Source: Anaeromusa acidaminophila DSM 3853
Lineage (GTDB): Bacteria; Bacillota; Negativicutes; Anaeromusales; Anaeromusaceae
NCBI RefSeq assembly: GCF_000374545.1
Contig: NZ_KB894585.1
Coordinates: 62,001 to 126,000 of the forward strand
DNA length: 64,000 nucleotides
Direction of reading: 5' to 3'
Part shown: piece after piece, positions 12,975-48,367 of the stretch
How positions within the stretch are numbered: position 1 is the first letter of the stretch
Layout of the letters: each line of letters begins with the position of its first letter
Made by a program: the position numbers and the translations under genes
Notes under the pieces: model-generated
Databases searched by the model: none
The model's input: the letters and a program-made list of their open reading frames with translations, nothing else
What the model was told of the DNA's origin: nothing

Positions 12975-14874
12975 GTGCGCCCGGCATGGGCGATAACTTG
13001 GTGGTGCAAGTCCACTACGCGCTCGGTAGCAGGAAGCGTTAGCCAAAGGCAAGGGTGTCCATCGCGAGGTGGAATCTGAAGGAAGTCGGAGGCAAAGTCC
13101 CGGACCGACGAACAGAAACCGCATATTAAGGCCGGTAGAGGGCGGACAAGTTTGCAACTCAAAACAAAGTCCCATGCTACCCGAACCCTTACCGGTAGAT
13201 GCGGCGGTTATATGGGATGAAGGTTATCGTTCTTACCCGGGGAGGTCTCACGGACGTGGAGTAAGACAATCTGAAACACGGAGTAAAGCTCGCTGTGAGA
13301 AGTCAGCCGAGGTCATAGTACCAGAAGAGGGAAAAAAAACTTTTCGGGAAGGGCCGAACAATCGTAAGTCTTGAGTAAAAGCCGGAAGGAGGCTGATGTG
13401 GTGAAAGCAGAAAACCGAAAGGGCTGCCTGCAGAGGGATGGCGTGGAACGCAAAGAGTATGCAGGAGCGCGGAGCATCAGCGCTCGGGAAAGCGAAGAAA
13501 GAGGCGGTGCAAGAGACCTGTTGGAAAGCATTCTGGAACGGGACAACCTGAACCAAGCCTACAAACAGGTCGAGCGTAACCACGGAGCACCGGGAATCGA
13601 TGGAATGACCATTGAAGACGCGCTTTTGTGGATAAGGAAACATCGGGAAGAACTCCTGCAAAGTATTCGAAAAGGCTGTTACAAGCCAAAGCCGGTACGA
13701 CGGAAGGAAATTCCTAAACCTGATGGCGGGACGCGGAAAATGGGGATACCTACGGTCATCGACCGTATCATCCAACAGGCCATTGCCCAGAAGCTCCAAC
13801 CAATTTTCGAACCGCTTTTCTCGGACGGAAGCTATGGCTATCGACCGAAAAGAAGCGCACGACAGGCGATCCAGAAAGTGAAGGAGCATGCAGAGCAGGG
13901 ATATGGCTATGCAGTAGAAATAGACCTGTCCCAATACTTCGACACCCTGAACCACGAACTGCTATTGGACCTTTTGCGCAAGCAAATCAGCGACACCCGT
14001 GTGACGAGACTTATCAAGAAATATCTTAAGGGCGGCGTCATGGACAACGGAGTGTTCAGCAGAACAGAAGAAGGATCACCGCAGGGCGGACCACTGTCGC
14101 CCCTATTGGCCAACATCTATCTGAATGAATTCGATCAGGAGATGGAAAGGCGAGGCGTGCAAGTGATACGTTATGCGGATGATATTGTGGTGTTAGCAAA
14201 AAGCAAGCGAGCCGCAGAACGTCTGTTGGGAAGCAGTCGCAGGTATTTGGAGGGCAGGCTAAAACTTAGAATAAACCTCCAAAAGAGCAAAGTGGTCAGT
14301 GTACTGGCAATAAAGCACTTCAAATTCCTCGGCTTCTGTCTTGGAAAGAACGGAAATGGCATTTACATACGAGCCCACCGGGATTCCCACGCAAAAGCAA
14401 AACGGAAACTGAAGGAGCTGACCCGCCGAAGTCAGGGCAGGGATGTGCGTAGGGTCATGGAATGCGTGAAGAGCTTCATCCGGGGCTGGCTCGGTTATTA
14501 TTATGTGGCCGACATCAAACGGATACTATTGTCATGGAATGAATGGCTACGCCGAAGGTTTCGGATGTACATCTGGAAACAATGGAAGAAGCCGAGAACG
14601 AGAGTGAAGAATCTGAAGAAACTCGGGATTCCCGACGGGTTGGCTTGCCAATGGGGGAACACCAGGCTTGGGTACTGGCGTATAGCCGGTAGCGCAGTGC
14701 TTTCCCGTTCCATAACAAACAAAAAGCTCGTACAGGCCGGTTATTATGACTTTCCGGCTCAGTACGAGCAATTACGCTTAATGCACTTATGCGGTTGAAC
14801 CGCCGTATACCGAACGGTATGTACGGTGGTGTGAGAGGTCGGCTACCCAACTAATGGGTAGCCTCCTACTCGAT
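12975..14874 (+). mobile_element. Group II intron, IIC-like
   Basis: The 5' end GTGCGCCCGGCATGGGCG at 12975 is a typical group II start. Folded RNA domains occupy about 400 bases before the encoded maturase. Domain V can be read at about 14797-14833, with the stem around CCGCCGTATACC and GGTATGTACGGTGG; its catalytic triad reads CGC, as in IIC introns. Domain VI has the hairpin GGCTACCC/GGGTAGCC, and the intron would end at ...CTCGAT (14874). The 3' boundary is judged by eye. Position just behind an intrinsic terminator is the known preference of class IIC elements. It interrupts no gene. Confidence 0.85.
13401..14798 (+). CDS. ltrA: Group II intron reverse transcriptase/maturase
   Basis: The 465-residue protein should splice and mobilise the surrounding intron. 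Reverse transcriptase blocks are in order: GAPGIDGM (about 67), GSYGYRP, EEGSPQGGPLSPLLANIYL, and the catalytic YADD at about 255. The maturase region X contains FIRGWLGYYY. The protein ends without an HNH endonuclease domain, so retargeting probably relies on single-stranded or hairpin DNA. A GTG at 13401 with AAGGAGG 8 bases upstream is preferred over the TTG ten codons earlier. All catalytic motifs are present, so the element may still be active. Confidence 0.93.
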   Translation: MKAENRKGCLQRDGVERKEYAGARSISARESEERGGARDLLESILERDNLNQAYKQVERNHGAPGIDGMTIEDALLWIRKHREELLQSIRKGCYKPKPVRRKEIPKPDGGTRKMGIPTVIDRIIQQAIAQKLQPIFEPLFSDGSYGYRPKRSARQAIQKVKEHAEQGYGYAVEIDLSQYFDTLNHELLLDLLRKQISDTRVTRLIKKYLKGGVMDNGVFSRTEEGSPQGGPLSPLLANIYLNEFDQEMERRGVQVIRYADDIVVLAKSKRAAERLLGSSRRYLEGRLKLRINLQKSKVVSVLAIKHFKFLGFCLGKNGNGIYIRAHRDSHAKAKRKLKELTRRSQGRDVRRVMECVKSFIRGWLGYYYVADIKRILLSWNEWLRRRFRMYIWKQWKKPRTRVKNLKKLGIPDGLACQWGNTRLGYWRIAGSAVLSRSITNKKLVQAGYYDFPAQYEQLRLMHLCG

Positions 14875-33588: not shown

Positions 33589-33629
33589 TCCTTCTAAGAG
33601 GATAAAAGGATTTTAAGGAGGTGCGCAGG

Positions 33630-35093
33630 ATGCGTTTATATGGTTTGTCCGGCTCGGGGTTGGACGTGGATAATTTGGTAAAAGACTTAATGAAAGCGGC
33701 GAATACGCCCCTGAATAAGCTTAATCAGCAGAAAACTACCTTGCAGTGGAAAAAAGAGGATTATTCCAGTATTTACAATACGGTCAATGATTTTCGCAAT
33801 AAAGTCTTTGATTATAAGCTGGATAAGACGTTAACTCCGCAGAAGGTAACATCTAGTAATGAAAGTGCGGTTGTCGCTTTGACAAGCGGCGGAGCAGCAG
33901 CGGTCACTCATACGGTGGAAGTGGATGCTTTGGCAACCGGAGCTGCTTCTATTAGCAGCGGGACGATTACGGCTGCCGGAAATAGCAAAACAACCATTGC
34001 TTCGCAGTTTTCCTTGGCTGCGGATACGACATTATCGTTTCAAGTTAATGGCAAGTCTGTTTCTATTAACACGAATCAAAGCTTGAACGAATTTGCATCT
34101 GCTTTGAATCGCGCTGGCGATGGCGTACAGGCAACCTATGATGCGACAGCGGACCGGATGTATATCTATAGCAGTACGACAGGAAGTACTGCTAAGGTTG
34201 ATTTTACAGGTAGCGCTGACTTGGCCTTTATTACGGACAACTTGAAATTATCAATAAGCAGCACTGGTACAGATGCAAGCGTGAAGATCGATGGGCAGAG
34301 TATTACGCAAAGCAGCAATTCCTTTACGTTGGCAGGTGTGTCGTATACACTAAAAAACAAGACGGCAGGGATATCGGCGACGATTTCGGTTTCTACAGAT
34401 GCAGATAAGACTGTAGAAAATATAAAATCTTTTATTGAAAGTTATAATGCGACACTAAAAGCTATCAATGATAAGGCAAACGAAACGCACAGCCGGAACT
34501 ACGCGCCGCTGACAGATGCGCAGAAGTCGTCTATGAGCGATAGCGAGATTACGGCTTGGGAGAAAATCGCTAAAACAGGCCTTTTGAGCAATGACTCTAT
34601 CTTGCGGCAGGCTGCGACAAACATGCGTAACAGTATTTCAAATCCTGTAGCAGGTATCAGCGGCAACTATACATCGTTATCGTCCATTGGCATTACAACC
34701 GGGTCGTACACGGAAGGCGGCAAATTGTATTTGGATGAGACGAAATTGCGCAAAGCTCTGCAGGAAGATCCGACGGTAGTCAAGAATCTATTTGGTACAG
34801 ACGGAGTAACTTCCTCGCAAGATGGTATTGCACAACGTTTGTATGATTCGTTAAAAGGTACAATGACCCAGCTAAATGACAAAGCGGGGGTTATTGCAGG
34901 CTCATCAGATACTAAGAGTTCTTTGGCTAAAGAGCTGAAGTCGTTGGACTCCAGAATTGATTCGACCACCTCGCGAATTAGCGCAATGCAAGAACGATAC
35001 TATAAACAGTTTGATGCATTGGAAACGATGTTGCAAAAACTCAATAGCCAGTCTTCTTGGCTTAGCCAATTATTTGGCGGAAACTCGCAGTAA
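33630..35093 (+). CDS. fliD: Flagellar filament cap protein FliD
   Basis: The 487-residue hook-associated protein 2 caps the filament and helps flagellin fold. The N-terminus RLYGLSGSGLDVDNLVKDLM and the LNQQKTTLQWKKEDYSSIYN coiled segment are typical FliD_N, and the C-terminal part with GKLYLDETKLRKALQEDPTVVKNLF is FliD_C, ending in a coiled coil. The ATG at 33630 is placed by AAGGAGG at 33615. It heads fliD-fliT-like-flaG-fliS. Confidence 0.94.
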   Translation: MRLYGLSGSGLDVDNLVKDLMKAANTPLNKLNQQKTTLQWKKEDYSSIYNTVNDFRNKVFDYKLDKTLTPQKVTSSNESAVVALTSGGAAAVTHTVEVDALATGAASISSGTITAAGNSKTTIASQFSLAADTTLSFQVNGKSVSINTNQSLNEFASALNRAGDGVQATYDATADRMYIYSSTTGSTAKVDFTGSADLAFITDNLKLSISSTGTDASVKIDGQSITQSSNSFTLAGVSYTLKNKTAGISATISVSTDADKTVENIKSFIESYNATLKAINDKANETHSRNYAPLTDAQKSSMSDSEITAWEKIAKTGLLSNDSILRQAATNMRNSISNPVAGISGNYTSLSSIGITTGSYTEGGKLYLDETKLRKALQEDPTVVKNLFGTDGVTSSQDGIAQRLYDSLKGTMTQLNDKAGVIAGSSDTKSSLAKELKSLDSRIDSTTSRISAMQERYYKQFDALETMLQKLNSQSSWLSQLFGGNSQ

Positions 35094-35096
35094 GCT

Positions 35097-35423
35097 ATGA
35101 ATACGAAGAACAGTCGAGAGTTGTGGAAGGAATACGCGTTTTTGACTACGGAAATGCGGAAATTTGTTTCTGTTCCCGATTGGGCGACACTGGAGGCTTT
35201 ACAACTACAGCGAGAAGAAGTGCAAAACTTGTTGATGCAAGGAACTGACGATTTTCGGGAGACCGAAGAAGGACAGGTGCTTTTAAAGCAAGTTTTGCAG
35301 GAACAAGAGCTATTGGTACAGGCTGTGGACGCACTTAAGCGAAATGTACAACAGCAGCATGCAAATGCCAGTGCTTATCAAGGTGTAGCTGGAGTAATCG
35401 CTCATGTGGAACGTAAAGGATAG
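35097..35423 (+). CDS. FliT-like small flagellar protein
   Basis: The 108-residue helical, Glu/Gln-rich protein lies 3 bases behind fliD and before flaG. Chaperones of FliD named FliT are of this size and occupy this place, but sequence similarity is too weak to be sure. The start MNTKNSRELWKEYAFLTTEM and the LLMQGTDDF segment are consistent with such a helical bundle. Confidence 0.6.
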   Translation: MNTKNSRELWKEYAFLTTEMRKFVSVPDWATLEALQLQREEVQNLLMQGTDDFRETEEGQVLLKQVLQEQELLVQAVDALKRNVQQQHANASAYQGVAGVIAHVERKG

Positions 35424-35434
35424 GAGGATGGAAG

Positions 35435-35890
35435 ATGGAGATCGGATCGCTCACACGCATGGATGCCGGAGCGACGGTGGCGACGGCCAGCTCAGCAGGG
35501 ATGCAGCAGGGGACTGTACAGCAAGGGAATGCGCAACAGCAGGAAACGCAGCGAAAAGCAAGTGACGCTCCTCAAGTTGCAGCAGCGGCAAGCGTAGCAA
35601 CAGTTGATGGAGCAAGTGAGCAAAAGGCTGATAAAGTAGCAATGAAACCGTTGCATTTTTTGCCAACCGCGGAAGAGCTTAAGACAATGTCATATGCAAT
35701 GAATCGATTTGTGGAAATGCTGACTGCTGATTTGAAGTTTGAAGTGCATGAAAAGACTCATGAAGTTATGGTGAAGTTCGTTAATACAAGAACAGGGGAA
35801 GTTTTAAAAGAGTATCCTCCCAAAGAATACCTGGACATGATCGCGAGAATTCGCGATTATGTTGGTATGATGATTGATAAAAAGATTTAG
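35435..35890 (+). CDS. flaG: FlaG family protein
   Basis: The 151-residue protein has a low-complexity Gln/Ala N-terminal half and the FlaG domain at the C-terminus (NRFVEMLTADLKFEVHEKTH, then VMVKFVNTRTGEVLKEYPPK). FlaG influences filament length in other bacteria. It lies 11 bases behind the FliT-like gene with an AGGAGG site. Confidence 0.88.
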   Translation: MEIGSLTRMDAGATVATASSAGMQQGTVQQGNAQQQETQRKASDAPQVAAAASVATVDGASEQKADKVAMKPLHFLPTAEELKTMSYAMNRFVEMLTADLKFEVHEKTHEVMVKFVNTRTGEVLKEYPPKEYLDMIARIRDYVGMMIDKKI

Positions 35891-35924
35891 CAATGGACGG
35901 GAATACTAGGAGGCATTTTTGAAC

Positions 35925-36314
35925 ATGAGTATGATGAATCCTGCAGCGGCATACCGCAATCAACAGATTATGACGGCGTCGCCGGAACAATTGACCTTGA
36001 TGTTGTATGATGGCGCTATACGTTTTTTGCGTGCGTCGATTACCGCGATTGAGGCGAAAGAGATGGAAAAAGCTCATGAGATGAACATGCGAACGCAGGA
36101 AATTATACGGGAGTTTCGGCAGACCTTAAACATGGATATCGAGCTTTCGGAAAACTGGGATAAGCTCTATGAATTTATGGAGTATCGCTTGATGGAGGGC
36201 AATGTGAAGAAAGATAAGGCGATGCTGCAGGAAGTATTGGATTTACTGAAAGAAATGCGGGATACTTGGGCGGAAGCTATGAAGCTGGCTAAAGGAATCG
36301 CGCCGGAAAAATAA
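35925..36314 (+). CDS. fliS: Flagellin chaperone FliS
   Basis: FliS keeps flagellin unfolded before export. The 129-residue protein carries AAAYRNQQIMTASPEQLTLM and LYDGAIRFL, both diagnostic. An ATG at 35925 follows CTAGGAGG; TTG six bases earlier is too near that site. It ends the operon in front of a strong terminator. Confidence 0.94.
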   Translation: MSMMNPAAAYRNQQIMTASPEQLTLMLYDGAIRFLRASITAIEAKEMEKAHEMNMRTQEIIREFRQTLNMDIELSENWDKLYEFMEYRLMEGNVKKDKAMLQEVLDLLKEMRDTWAEAMKLAKGIAPEK

Positions 36315-36347
36315 AAAAAGCCGTCGGCGAATGCTGACGGCTTTTTT
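36313..36347 (+). terminator. Terminator of the fliD-fliS operon
   Basis: AAAAAAGCCGTC and GACGGCTTTTTT form a long stem with a small internal G-U region and a T-run. Confidence 0.88.
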
Positions 36348-36395
36348 GCGGGTACGAGGCACAGGAATGCAGGGTACGACGGAGCTACAAGATTT

Positions 36396-36780
36396 ACACA
36401 GAGAAACAGAGGAAATGCCAGAGGTAACAGAGAGAACATTGGAACGGGGATTGAACAAGAGAACCGGAGAATCTGAGGGTTCGAATGAGGGTTACGGGGA
36501 ACGGTTTTTTAACAGGAGTATAGGGAGTATAGGGAGGGCTTACGGGTAAAGGAACGGAATACAGAGAATCAGAGAAATTGGACAGTAGCACAAGGAGATT
36601 GCCGCGCTGCGCTCGCAATGACGGGTCAGTCGGCTTAGCGGTGAGGGGAGGCTGTGCCGCTAAGATGGCTATTTTGTCATTGCAAGGAGCGAAGTGAAGA
36701 AGCAATCTCTGCGGTAAATAGTTCGGTTTTCCTCTCGGGCATTTCTCTGGCCGTTCTCTGTTACTCTGAGTGAACCGTAT
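36396..36780. repeat. Composite inverted-repeat element between fliS and gmhB
   Basis: From left to right: a CAGAGAAACAGAGG module (36396-36440), the arm GGGATTGAACAAGAGAACC (36447-36465), the arm AACAGGAGTATAGGGAGT with GGGAGGG (36511-36538), a GAGATTGC...GCAATCTC element (36596-36713, with an inner CTTAGCGG/CCGCTAAG hairpin), and the inverse module GGCATTTCTCTGGCC (36739-36753). No gene is present in this 500-base gap. Confidence 0.75.
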
Positions 36781-36813
36781 TCTCCCCAGTATTTTCATGA
36801 GGAGGCTGTTGGT

Positions 36814-37350
36814 GTGCGTAAGGCGTTGTTTTTGGATCGAGATGGTGTGATTAATGTAGAGAAGCATTATTTACATAAAATAGAAGACTTTGAATTTATT
36901 CCGGGAATTATTGAAGTGATGCATCAATATCAGCAAGACGGGTATGTGCTGGTGGTTGTGACGAACCAATCTGGAATTGGGCGCGGCTATTATACAGAGG
37001 AAGATTTCTGGGCGCTGACGGAGTGGATGAAGCAGACATTGGCAGAACAGGATGTTATGATTGAAGGCGTCTACTTTTCCCCCTATCATCCGGAAAAGGC
37101 GATTGGCGAATATCGTCGGGAATCGGATTGTCGTAAGCCAGGGCCGGGGATGCTATTAAAGGCGGCAGAGGAACTGGAGCTTGTTTTGAATGAGTCGGTG
37201 GTGCTTGGTGATAAGGAGTCTGACGTGGAAGCGGGGAGGCGGGCGGGGGTGGCGCAGACTATCCGCTTGTTGGAGAAAGGAAATGTTGTTGAGAATAGTA
37301 AGGCGGACGTAGTGATTTATGACGTGAGGGACCTTTTGCGAAAAAACTAA
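36814..37350 (+). CDS. gmhB: HAD phosphatase, heptose bisphosphatase GmhB-like
   Basis: The 178-residue HADIIIA phosphatase has the nucleophile motif FLDRDGVIN, VVTNQSGIGRG and the Asp-containing VVLGDKESDVEAG. GmhB removes the 7-phosphate of D-glycero-D-manno-heptose 1,7-bisphosphate for LPS core, which fits a diderm cell. The zinc loop is degenerate: where four ligands (Cys, His, Cys, Cys) are expected, the sequence reads SPYHP and ESDC. GTG start with GAGGAGG at 36799. A histidinol phosphatase role cannot be excluded. Confidence 0.8.
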   Translation: MRKALFLDRDGVINVEKHYLHKIEDFEFIPGIIEVMHQYQQDGYVLVVVTNQSGIGRGYYTEEDFWALTEWMKQTLAEQDVMIEGVYFSPYHPEKAIGEYRRESDCRKPGPGMLLKAAEELELVLNESVVLGDKESDVEAGRRAGVAQTIRLLEKGNVVENSKADVVIYDVRDLLRKN

Positions 37351-37355
37351 TTATA

Positions 37356-37384
37356 CTGACAATATGTGATTTTTGCGGTATAAT
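37356..37384 (+). promoter_or_regulatory. Sigma-A promoter of second fliD-like gene
   Basis: CTGACA at 37356-37361, a 17-base spacer and TATAAT at 37379-37384. Unlike fliD this gene thus appears under the housekeeping factor. Confidence 0.75.
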
Positions 37385-37425
37385 AATATAAGGTAAGTAT
37401 ACTCTTTTGCCAGGAGGTGATTAGT

Positions 37426-38706
37426 GTGGCTAATGTTAGCCTGAGCGTGTATAGAAATTTAATGCCTTATACAGGGTATAATTCGGTGTCGCCAACAAAA
37501 GCGGTTGATACGAATCTGCTAAAGCTAGGGAATCAGTATAAATCCCTAAAACAGTCGGCGCAGAATCAGTTTGCTAATTATCGCGCAGAACAGCAAAGCT
37601 ATGCTTCACAGATAAAAGAAGTATCAAGCGCTAATCAACAACTGAAAAGTGCGACAGGACAATTTTCCGGCGCGGAAAATGTATTTGCTAAAAATACCGT
37701 AACCTCAACATCGAGTGCTATTTCGGGGCAGGCTAAAGTGGCGGCCAAGGCGGCAACGTATGAGGTGGAAGTTAGCAAGGTGGCGACGGCGCAGCAAAAT
37801 ACAGGGACCCGCGTTAATGCCCTGGGGTATGGGGCGTTGTCTGCAGGTAATTACACGTTAGGGGTTACCGATAGCAGTGGCAAGGAAAAAAACATATCGT
37901 TTGCAGTGAGTGCTGGGGAAAATAACAGCAAAGTATTAGAGAAGGTAGCAAAAGCGTTTAGTGAAAGCGGTTTGAATATAAACGCTGTAATGAGCAGCGA
38001 TGGAACGAAAACGGGGCTGAATTTGCAGTCCAAGGAAACCGGGGCTGCTCAAAGCTTTACATTGCGGGATGTATCCGGCAATGCGGTTGCGGCTTTGGGA
38101 CTGGGAAATCGTACGCAGCAGGCAGAAAATGCTGTGTATAGCGTGAATGGAAAAGCGGCAACCTCTGCGTCTAATCAAATTTCTTTAGATTACGGTAATG
38201 TGACGCTGAATTTGCAAAAAGCAACAACAGAGAAGGCTGTGGTAACGGTAGGCAAGAACCCTGCGGGCATTGTCACGGCAGCTAAAGAGATGATTACGGC
38301 GTATAATCGCCTGGAAACAGCGGTTACAGGGGCAGATAATGTGACGGCTGCGGGGCAGCGCGTTTTTTCTCGCGTAGACGCGAAGTTTCAGGGATACCAG
38401 AAAAACGAGTTGGCGAATATTGGCATAACGCGTGATTCTCAGACTGGCGAATTGGCGCTGGACGAGAAGCGGCTGACGAGCGCGCTGGCAAAAGATTCAG
38501 GACGAGTGCAGCGACTGTTGGGAGGGGAGAATGGTTTAACTGGCGCACTGAATGCAGTATCTTCAGCTGTCGGTTCAAGTCCTGCGTCTACGCTCTTGAA
38601 GGTTCCCAGTCCGTTGGAGTCTACGTCATCTTACGGGCAGACAGGAAGTTTGGCAGTTGCGGCTTTACGGCAGTCTTCCGGTTTCTTACTGGATTTGTTT
38701 GCATAA
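37426..38706 (+). CDS. FliD-like flagellar cap protein, second copy
   Basis: The 426-residue protein shares the C-terminal FliD pattern with fliD: PAGIVTAAKEMITAYNRLE, then ANIGITRDSQTGELALDEKR and RVQRLLGG. The N-terminus (VSLSVYRNLMPYTGYNSVSP) lacks the normal GLASGLDV-type start, and a Ser/Ala-rich middle follows. It could be a variant cap, an adhesin-like cap or a secreted protein using the flagellar system. GTG start with AGGAGG at 37412. Confidence 0.7.
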   Translation: MANVSLSVYRNLMPYTGYNSVSPTKAVDTNLLKLGNQYKSLKQSAQNQFANYRAEQQSYASQIKEVSSANQQLKSATGQFSGAENVFAKNTVTSTSSAISGQAKVAAKAATYEVEVSKVATAQQNTGTRVNALGYGALSAGNYTLGVTDSSGKEKNISFAVSAGENNSKVLEKVAKAFSESGLNINAVMSSDGTKTGLNLQSKETGAAQSFTLRDVSGNAVAALGLGNRTQQAENAVYSVNGKAATSASNQISLDYGNVTLNLQKATTEKAVVTVGKNPAGIVTAAKEMITAYNRLETAVTGADNVTAAGQRVFSRVDAKFQGYQKNELANIGITRDSQTGELALDEKRLTSALAKDSGRVQRLLGGENGLTGALNAVSSAVGSSPASTLLKVPSPLESTSSYGQTGSLAVAALRQSSGFLLDLFA

Positions 38707-38769: not shown

Positions 38770-38798
38770 TTGAAATATTCTGGAAATTGCGTTATAAT
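38770..38798 (+). promoter_or_regulatory. Sigma-A promoter of the structured RNA and zinc-ribbon gene
   Basis: TTGAAA at 38770-38775, a 17-base spacer and a perfect TATAAT at 38793-38798. Transcription would start near 38805. Confidence 0.8.
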
Positions 38799-38804
38799 GA
38801 CCTC

Positions 38805-39045
38805 GGGAAATGTTGCTTAGGTCTGTGGTTGAAAGTCGATGCCAGTCGCAGGCGAAACGATCCACGTAAGGAGCTCGTATAATTTTTCCGAAGCTTTGAG
38901 CATGGTGCGGCTTAGAAGTAAGACCTGCCGGGACGTAAGATCTCGAGAGGGGAAGTAGTGAGCGGATTGGAATCCTCGTAGCGAAACTTCCTGCAGGCGA
39001 GTGTGGGGTCAAAGACCAGGTCGGCTAAGCAACCTCCTTAGAAAC
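38805..39045 (+). ncRNA. Candidate structured RNA upstream of a zinc-ribbon gene
   Basis: About 230 GC-richer bases without a reading frame lie between a strong promoter and gene 39069. The ends can close by a perfect 9-bp helix, GTTGCTTAG (38812-38820) with CTAAGCAAC (39025-39033), and smaller hairpins are visible inside, such as GGTC-AAA-GACC at 39007-39017. It is not recognised as tmRNA, RNase P, SRP or a riboswitch class I know. A raiA-type RNA is one possibility to test. RNA status is inferred from position and pairing. Confidence 0.6.
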
Positions 39046-39059
39046 CAATAAGGTGAGGG
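39034..39059 (+). promoter_or_regulatory. Hairpin able to mask the ribosome site of the zinc-ribbon gene
   Basis: CCTCCTTA (39034-39041) can pair with TAAGGTGAGG (39050-39059) with a two-base bulge. The latter contains the Shine-Dalgarno AAGGTGAG. The anti-Shine-Dalgarno lies immediately after the RNA's closing helix, so folding could control translation. Confidence 0.5.
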
Positions 39060-39068
39060 ATCTCGTGC

Positions 39069-39380: not shown

Positions 39381-39405
39381 GCCCCGGTCTTGTGCCGGGG
39401 CTTTT
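39381..39405 (+). terminator. Terminator of the zinc-ribbon gene
   Basis: GCCCCGG (39381-39387) pairs with CCGGGGC (39395-39401), followed by TTTT. Confidence 0.85.
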
Positions 39406-39530: not shown

Positions 39531-40298
39531 ATGTCGAAAAAATGGCTTTCGGTAATGGTATTGGCGATGTTTATGTTGACGTTGGGTTTGGCTGGCTGCG
39601 GCGGTGACAAGCAGCAAGGGAAAAAAGTTTTAAAGATTGGTACGGATCCTGGATTTGCGCCGTTTGAATTCCAAGATGAGAAAAGCAAAGAATATGTAGG
39701 CTTTGATATTGATTTGATTAAAGCGCTAGGCGCGAAAATGGGTTATGAAGTACAAATTCAGAACATGAACTTTGATGGCTTGATTCCGGCGCTGGAAGCT
39801 GGCAATATTGATGCTACCGTTGCGGGAATGACGATTAAAGAAGAACGTGCGAAAAAAGTATTGTTCTCGAAACCTTATTATCAGTCCGGTTTGATTGTTG
39901 CCGTGAAAAACGACAATAACACGATCAAGAACATAAAAGATTTGGAAGGCAAGCGCATTGCCGTACAAATTGGTACTACCGGCGCTGATGCCGCTAAAAA
40001 GATTCCTAATGCTGTCGTTCGCGAGTTCAACAATGCTCCGGAAGCCTTTATGGAATTGAAAGCTGGCGGCGCAGATGCGGTTATTAATGACAAACCGGTA
40101 ACGGCCTACTATTTGAAACAGGGTGGCGATAAGGATGCCAAAATGGTAGGAGATGTTTTGCAAGCTGAAGAATACGGCATTGCTATGAACAAAAAAAGCA
40201 CGGAACTGAAAGAAAAAATGGATAAAGCGTTGGATGAAATGAAAGCCAATGGCGAATATGATAAAATTTATGAAAAATGGTTTGGCAAAAAACAATAA
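39531..40298 (+). CDS. Amino acid ABC transporter substrate-binding lipoprotein, copy 1
   Basis: The 255-residue protein begins with a lipoprotein signal peptide ending LAGCGG (lipid-bearing Cys about 23) and continues as a family-3 periplasmic binding protein (VGFDIDLIKALGAKMGYE, VQIGTTGADAA). These bind polar amino acids or glutamine/cystine-like ligands. No permease or ATPase gene lies near, so it must share a transporter encoded elsewhere. A second, similar gene follows. Confidence 0.92.
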   Translation: MSKKWLSVMVLAMFMLTLGLAGCGGDKQQGKKVLKIGTDPGFAPFEFQDEKSKEYVGFDIDLIKALGAKMGYEVQIQNMNFDGLIPALEAGNIDATVAGMTIKEERAKKVLFSKPYYQSGLIVAVKNDNNTIKNIKDLEGKRIAVQIGTTGADAAKKIPNAVVREFNNAPEAFMELKAGGADAVINDKPVTAYYLKQGGDKDAKMVGDVLQAEEYGIAMNKKSTELKEKMDKALDEMKANGEYDKIYEKWFGKKQ

Positions 40299-40346: not shown

Positions 40347-40380
40347 TTTTCTTTCATTTTCCGAAACATTGCGCATTTTG

Positions 40381-40429
40381 CATCTTTGTGTAAGATACTT
40401 TATGATTAAAAGTATCTTACACAAAGATG
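40381..40429 (+). repeat. Perfect 20-bp inverted repeat upstream of second binding-protein gene
   Basis: The two arms (40381-40400 and 40410-40429) are exact complements around a 9-base loop, containing CATCTTTGTGTAAGATACTT. It lies 20 bases before the next start codon. It could be a large operator or an RNA hairpin in the leader; there is no T-tract. Confidence 0.75.
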
Positions 40430-40449
40430 AGTGCGAAGGAGATGTACTA

Positions 40450-41238
40450 ATGAAGAAAAATACTTTAATCTGGTTGGTATTGGCGTTATTTACGATCGTT
40501 GTGGGTGTCGCTGGCTGCGGCGGTGAGAAGAAAGCGGATAATACCGGGAAAAAGGTTTTGCGCGTAGGTGCAGAGATGACTTTTCCGCCGTTTGAATTTC
40601 AGGATGACAAGAGTAAAGATTATGTAGGGTTTGATATGGATTTGTCCAGGGCTTTGGCTAAAGAGATGGGAATGGAGTTGGAGATTCAGAGCATGGGCTT
40701 TGATGCGTTGATTCCGGCATTGGACTCCGGTACGATTGATATGATTGCTTCCGGCGTCTCCATTACGCCTGAACGGCAGCAAAAGGTTGCTTTTTCTGCG
40801 CCTTACTACAAATCCGGCTTGAGTATTTTGGTGAAAAACGAGAATACGACCATCAAGAGTTTCAAAGACTTAGAAGGAAAAAAAATTGCCGTGCAAATAG
40901 GCACGACATCTGCGGAAGAAGCTCGTAAAATTCCCGGTGCGGTGGTGCGTGAATTTAATGGTGTGCCAGAAACTTTTATGGAACTGAAAGCTGGCGGTGT
41001 GGATGCCGTTGTGAATGACTTGCCGGTTAACCAATACTACTTGGGGCAGTTTGAAAAAAAAGGCGATGCTTTTGCTAAACTGGCGACAACAGAGCTGAAA
41101 AATGCGGAAGACTATGGTATTGCAGTAGCTAAGAAAAATACTGAATTGGCCAGCAAGGTGAACAAAGCGTTGGAAACCTTAAAAGCCAATGGCGAGTATG
41201 ACAAACTGTATCAGAAATGGTTCGGCAAAAAACAATAA
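40450..41238 (+). CDS. Amino acid ABC transporter substrate-binding lipoprotein, copy 2
   Basis: The 262-residue paralogue of the preceding gene has signal peptide ending GVAGCGG and the same family-3 blocks (FEFQDDKSKDYVGFDMDL, VQIGTTSAEEAR). Ligand-site residues differ (AEMTFPPFEF versus TDPGFAPFEF), so specificity may differ. The ATG at 40450 follows GAAGGAG; an upstream in-frame ATG lies before the inverted repeat and is rejected. Confidence 0.92.
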   Translation: MKKNTLIWLVLALFTIVVGVAGCGGEKKADNTGKKVLRVGAEMTFPPFEFQDDKSKDYVGFDMDLSRALAKEMGMELEIQSMGFDALIPALDSGTIDMIASGVSITPERQQKVAFSAPYYKSGLSILVKNENTTIKSFKDLEGKKIAVQIGTTSAEEARKIPGAVVREFNGVPETFMELKAGGVDAVVNDLPVNQYYLGQFEKKGDAFAKLATTELKNAEDYGIAVAKKNTELASKVNKALETLKANGEYDKLYQKWFGKKQ

Positions 41239-48003: not shown

Positions 48004-48114
48004 AAAATAGGAGTATTTTGACTACCTTGCCCATTATCTTGTCGAGCCGCTTCCCTGAGGCAGGATTTAATTTGCTTATCAGAGAAAAGAATTTTCAAGA
48101 CAACTGAAAAAGGA

Positions 48115-48310
48115 TGCCACCAAACAGGTGCCTTCGGAAGCGTTGAAAAAGCCGAAGGAGAATAGGGAAGTTCGGACAGGCTGTTTGGCCTGTAAACGAT
48201 GCGGTCGCGCCACTGTATTCGGGGAGAGCTCTTGCGTATGCCACTGGGAAACCGGGAAGGTGCAGGAAGCTTGAGAAACCGTTAGCCAGGATACCTGCCT
48301 GTTTTGGCTG
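48115..48310 (+). promoter_or_regulatory. Cobalamin riboswitch upstream of cobT
   Basis: The classical landmarks are in order: CAGGTGCC at 48125-48132, a GGGAA element at 48168-48173, GCCACTGT (48209-48216), GCCACTGGGAAACCGGGAAG at about 48239-48258, and GCCAGGATACCTGCCTGT at its end. P1 forms from CCAAACAGG (48120-48128) with CCTGTTTTGG (48298-48307). It should sense adenosylcobalamin and turn off cobT. Confidence 0.93.
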
Positions 48311-48367
48311 TCATGCACCCTCGCGCCAAGGGGAATGCCAGAAGGATAGGTACACTTAAGAAAAGAT

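Follow-up and report, generated by a model that had tools for sequence, protein, structure and literature searches.

The raiA RNA (ModT; Rfam RF03072) is an abundant, stable and trans-acting transcript in C. difficile (PMC11706538), and genetic work in Clostridia shows that its action in trans affects the growth transition and c-di-GMP (PMC11706538). Its common neighbors, comFC (74%) and the raiA gene (66%), are frequent without being defining, and its gene context was earlier judged uninformative (PMC11706538). Two further points of comparison are OLE RNA, a large RNA, conserved in bacteria, that has a protein partner (PMC11706538), and translational riboswitches such as TPP. We compared these systems with a locus of Anaeromusa acidaminophila DSM 3853 that lies in a 64,000-nucleotide stretch of DNA analyzed as a whole (the window). 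The locus resembles known raiA RNAs in its full-length match to the family, its core sequence, P1, P3 with the pseudoknot pk-1, P4-P5 and the P6-P8 region. It differs in that a type-I zf_Tbcl zinc-ribbon gene follows without a terminator, that the hpf/raiA gene is 93 kb distant on the contig, and that the P1 sequence is frozen in the subgroup linked to this zinc-ribbon gene. As with OLE RNA, a large conserved bacterial RNA may have a protein partner, although the partnership is only proposed here, the zinc-ribbon protein is not an obligate companion of raiA RNA, and binding is putative. Like a translational riboswitch, the RNA is a structured 5' leader before a start codon, but no consistent alternative pairing or sequestration of the Shine-Dalgarno (SD) sequence was found in full-length raiA RNAs.

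Searching the whole window with Rfam 15 (cmscan) gave a single match at this site, the raiA RNA, which scores 190.1 bits (E 1.2e-48 for the whole window) against a curated cut-off of 101.3 bits and covers the model end to end (positions 1-209 of 209) in 222 bases. A sequence-only reading of this DNA had suggested a raiA-type RNA, to be checked with Infernal against Rfam, or else an undescribed element; the full-length match, well over the cut-off, makes the first identity nearly certain and disposes of the second. The same reading was borne out in its description of the surroundings: the perfect 9-bp terminal helix is P1 of the Rfam model and marks the exact ends of the RNA, the promoter and the small downstream zinc-ribbon gene are both present (Table 1), and the region said to be free of reading frames holds only mechanical ORFs of 41 aa (+) and 100 aa (-, with a TTG start). 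The genome carries one copy of the RNA. Its pk-1, a feature of membership in the raiA family, consists of seven pairs, one of them G-U, and the P6-P8 region is present. The assignment of P4 is probable, judging from the structure paper (PMC11751092) and from covariation in short variants. Neither comFC nor the raiA gene lies beside the RNA, whose neighbors are a fliD-like gene and the zf_Tbcl gene. Across the genus (four species) the 222-base RNA and the 35-base linker are identical and the sequence upstream of the promoter diverges; a -10-like box was seen by eye at the equivalent place in most relatives, and transcription is predicted to start just ahead of P1. The folding energy of the RNA is ordinary (z 0.12; 102 of 200 shuffles folded equally well), so single-sequence folding was uninformative as evidence of a structured RNA, and it was the covariance model that revealed the element.

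Table 1. Features of the raiA RNA-zinc-ribbon locus, in window coordinates.
Feature	Position	Strand	Remarks
Promoter, TTGAAA-17-TATAAT	38770..38798	+	11 of 12 consensus bases; kept in the genus
raiA (ModT) RNA, RF03072, full length	38812..39033	+	Covariance model
P1 5' strand, GTTGCTTAG	38812..38820	+	Inner CTTAG frozen in linked loci
P1 3' strand, CTAAGCAAC	39025..39033	+	P1 of the Rfam model
P3 hairpin	38841..38853	+	Matched to the published cryo-EM description (PMC11751092)
pk-1, P3 loop AGTCGCA with TGCGGCT	38844-38850 with 38906-38912	+	Description in PMC11751092
Probable P4, 5' strand GATCCAC with partner GTGTGGGGTC	38859..38865 with 39001-39010	+	
Linker from RNA end to ATG, 35 nt	39034..39068	+	No terminator within
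Ribosome-binding motif in linker, GTGAGGGA	39053-39060	+	
Type-I zf_Tbcl zinc-ribbon gene, 98 aa	39069..39365	+	PF13451 (91 bits), PF23477 (74 bits); TIGR04272; gene tree
Intrinsic terminator closing the raiA-zinc-ribbon transcription unit	39381..39401	+	Lies after the zinc-ribbon gene

Conservation outside the species was one of two points on which the sequence-only reading had made its proposal depend, and within the class the RNA occurs in 168 of 341 genomes. Apart from five, the RNA-negative genomes all belong to one family, f19 (G087-G254), none of whose 168 genomes appears among the raiA matches listed. Most members of this family have kept a zf_Tbcl gene (type I in 15 of the 15 read), making it a natural knock-out of the raiA RNA for comparison. 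Sampling the phylum more broadly, we obtained RF03072 matches in 48 of 398 genomes. A pattern scan of public genomes also recovered the unit in the Negativicutes relatives Sporomusa, Pelosinus, Anaerospora and Lucifera and in MAGs, with a pattern that was built from the Negativicutes P1 and linker and is uninformative on other groups. Pelosinus fermentans and Sporomusa ovata, culturable and non-pathogenic, are among the carriers.

The neighboring zinc-ribbon gene, to which the sequence-only reading attached no weight, turned out to be the most informative feature. We compared 90 raiA loci, drawn from unevenly sampled families and from lineages that are not independent. A zf_Tbcl gene lies directly 3' of the RNA on the same strand in 49 of them, hereafter the linked loci, which span 18 Negativicutes families, four families of other Bacillota (f35, f53, f59 and f137) and two short-RNA families. 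Between the end of the RNA and the ATG lie 32-41 nt in 48 of the 49 (62 nt in the other), and none of the 49 has a terminator between RNA and gene. A further locus, in G074, appears linked and was excluded, its contig ending inside the gene; in this genome contigs C117 and C60 both end in the raiA region (loci L041 and L166), probably an assembly overlap.

A tree of 102 zf_Tbcl proteins, which are short and leave many forks unresolved, splits the linked genes and those of f19, together called type I, from the unlinked paralogs; the f43 genes form a separate branch. Among the type-I rows a single one, T2_L166, was labeled type II, and it comes from a linked locus. Sampled genomes with an unlinked raiA RNA yielded no type-I gene and have other zf_Tbcl types or no zf_Tbcl at all, and wherever the RNA and a type-I gene are both present in a sampled genome they are adjacent. 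Obligate co-occurrence of the two was nevertheless rejected, since each is also found alone: six families (f2, f31-f34 and f69) keep the RNA and lack the type-I protein, and f19 is the one family with the type-I protein that has lost the RNA. The ribosome-binding motif G[TC]GAGGG stands before 47 of the 49 linked genes, before 2 of the 15 type-I genes read in f19 and before 0 of 24 unlinked type-II paralogs, 18 of which have GGAGG (both paralog counts leave out L166). By sequence, the best matches of the zinc-ribbon protein to solved structures were chance-level PRDM9 zinc fingers. We found no literature on zf_Tbcl, although the synteny data of Soares 2024 and Weinberg 2017 may list this neighbor.

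The helix that closes the RNA behaves differently in the two sets of loci. Its inner six pairs occur in 29 strand combinations among the 41 unlinked loci, where 5.56 of the 6 are retained, and this supplies the second point that the sequence-only reading had set for itself, covariation among homologs. Among the 49 linked loci there are only eight combinations, with pairing likewise maintained (5.76 of 6), and the inner CTTAG is present in 48. When loci of different families are compared at any given level of identity elsewhere in the RNA, their P1 helices are 0.94-1.00 identical if linked and 0.35-0.50 identical if unlinked. Taking one locus per family in Negativicutes, the rest of the RNA is 0.74 identical in both sets, and P1 is 0.97 identical in linked against 0.43 in unlinked loci; shuffling labels over 26 Negativicutes families reached this difference in 0 of 5000 trials, in a test that ignores phylogeny, in which linked families partly group together, as do unlinked ones. 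P1 is thus frozen only when linked, and both of its strands are frozen almost equally. One genome, G059, has lost the gene and retained the frozen P1, which may reflect nothing more than recent gene loss. Alternative folding fails to account for the freezing, because pairing between P1 and the linker is weaker than with shuffled linkers. A helix that is frozen yet paired, and lacks an RNA partner, suggests that P1 in linked loci is recognized by a protein.

One Bacillota order carries a much smaller form of the RNA. Its raiA RNAs are 110-121 nt long and lack P6-P8 (L143-L153; for example L149:3088-3205), and in 13 genomes sub-threshold RF03072 matches cover the whole model in 113-120 nt. When six of these loci were scanned with cmscan, raiA was the sole match there, and 20 of the 22 genomes from this order matched a model built from the short RNAs. 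The short RNAs retain P1, P3, pk-1, P4 and a short P5. Between the two short-RNA families, changes on both sides of a helix are seen in P4 (CCCTC/GAGGG versus TCCCAG/TTGGGG), in P5 (CGGGTGG/TCACCTG, GGGTATT/GATACCC and GAGTGG/CCACTC) and in pk-1 (GCCGC/GCGGC versus GCCGTA/TACGGC), the last being imperfect in G519 and G704. Published raiA variants have a short P6 or P6-P8 domain (PMC11751092), and a form without P6 appears to be undescribed so far. In every complete short-RNA locus read, the zinc-ribbon gene comes next, with spacing as in full-length loci; the RNA is about 100 nt smaller, yet the distance to the ATG is unchanged. This natural short raiA indicates which domains can go and offers a smaller RNA for biochemistry.

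We propose, with about even confidence, that the raiA RNA and the zinc-ribbon protein are co-transcribed and work as a unit coupled through P1. A short transcript would begin at the promoter, carry the RNA first and then the gene, and end at the terminator; RNA and gene probably share this transcript. In lineages with the type-I protein the two would act together, with the RNA retaining its general role in trans. P1 would be read sequence-specifically, and we hypothesize that the reader is, most simply, the co-produced zinc-ribbon protein, which might form an RNP with the RNA or feed back on its own message. Two observations count against such coupling: in Clostridia, ModT acts in trans with no zinc-ribbon gene adjacent (PMC11706538), and RNA and protein are separable in f19 on one side and in f2, f31-f34 and f69 on the other. 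A narrower version, in which type-I zf_Tbcl is a dedicated raiA partner, encoded on the same transcript, that recognizes P1, the short-RNA core (P1, P3/pk-1 and P4-P5) is minimal and P6-P8/pk-2 is dispensable, is one we put forward tentatively and regard as rather doubtful. The raiA RNA is widespread, abundant and structurally intricate, and the linkage offers a lead on its unexplained molecular function by supplying a specific protein and a specific RNA element for testing.

The main competitor to a coupled unit is ancestry. The RNA could be an ordinary trans-acting ModT whose inherited neighbor borrows a strong RNA promoter, the pattern reflecting descent and slow drift. This fits the complementation of C. 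difficile ModT deletions from another locus (PMC11706538), the persistence of RNA and gene each alone, and the fact that elsewhere the RNA adjoins comFC and raiA. It fits poorly with a spacing of 32-41 nt held across at least 22 families, even where the RNA is halved, with an SD motif that drifts once the RNA is lost, and with the freezing of P1 alone in an RNA otherwise as divergent as in unlinked loci. We consider mere inheritance possible and the less probable account, and infer that the unit is functional.

We regard it as unlikely that the RNA is a riboswitch-like leader in cis, its folding toggling zinc-ribbon translation through the ribosome site. The fixed distance to the start codon and the conserved GTGAGGGG ribosome site of linked genes would suit such a leader, and in the short-form order this site is predicted to be more closed than with a shuffled upstream linker (0.20 versus 0.48). 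In 38 full-length loci, however, its predicted openness equals that of shuffles, and it neither pairs consistently with one raiA strand nor tracks the P4 GACCC variants; published complementation in trans (PMC11706538) also argues against a switch in cis. Three specific candidates were tried and rejected. For mimicry of the P4 3' strand by the SD (GTGTGGGGTC versus GTGAGGGATC), which looked appealing by eye, the P4 strand seldom came out as the top partner in full-length RNAs. An anti-SD linker hairpin (CCTTA/TAAGG, 39036-39040 with 39050-39054) looked good within the genus, but SD openness equaled shuffles in 31 Negativicutes loci. Attenuator pairing of P1 with the linker or the gene start was weaker than or equal to shuffles, the linkers avoiding P1 pairing. 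The predictions thus do not support P4 exchange, linker hairpin closure or alternative pairing of P1 as cis switches in full-length RNAs. We think it very improbable that P1 DNA is an operator or processing site for a DNA-binding regulator or endonuclease, with the 3' strand following to preserve pairing: P1 starts about 14 nt past the -10 box, where initial-transcribed-region effects are possible, and freeing ModT RNA from linked transcripts would require processing, but no candidate regulator was found and the two strands are almost equally frozen.

Flagellar genes (fliD-like and fliS-like; 33621-38706) lie directly 5' of the unit, and relatives of fliS and fliD are likewise found upstream of raiA RNA in many other families. 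On the 3' side are tandem amino-acid ABC transporter binding proteins (39531-40298 and 40369-41238). Across families, the gene seen most often on the downstream side near raiA RNA encodes a related binding protein. Elsewhere, the window contains matches to group II intron domains (RF02001 and RF01998) at 13058-13354 and a cobalamin riboswitch (RF00174, 85.7 bits) at 48109-48316.
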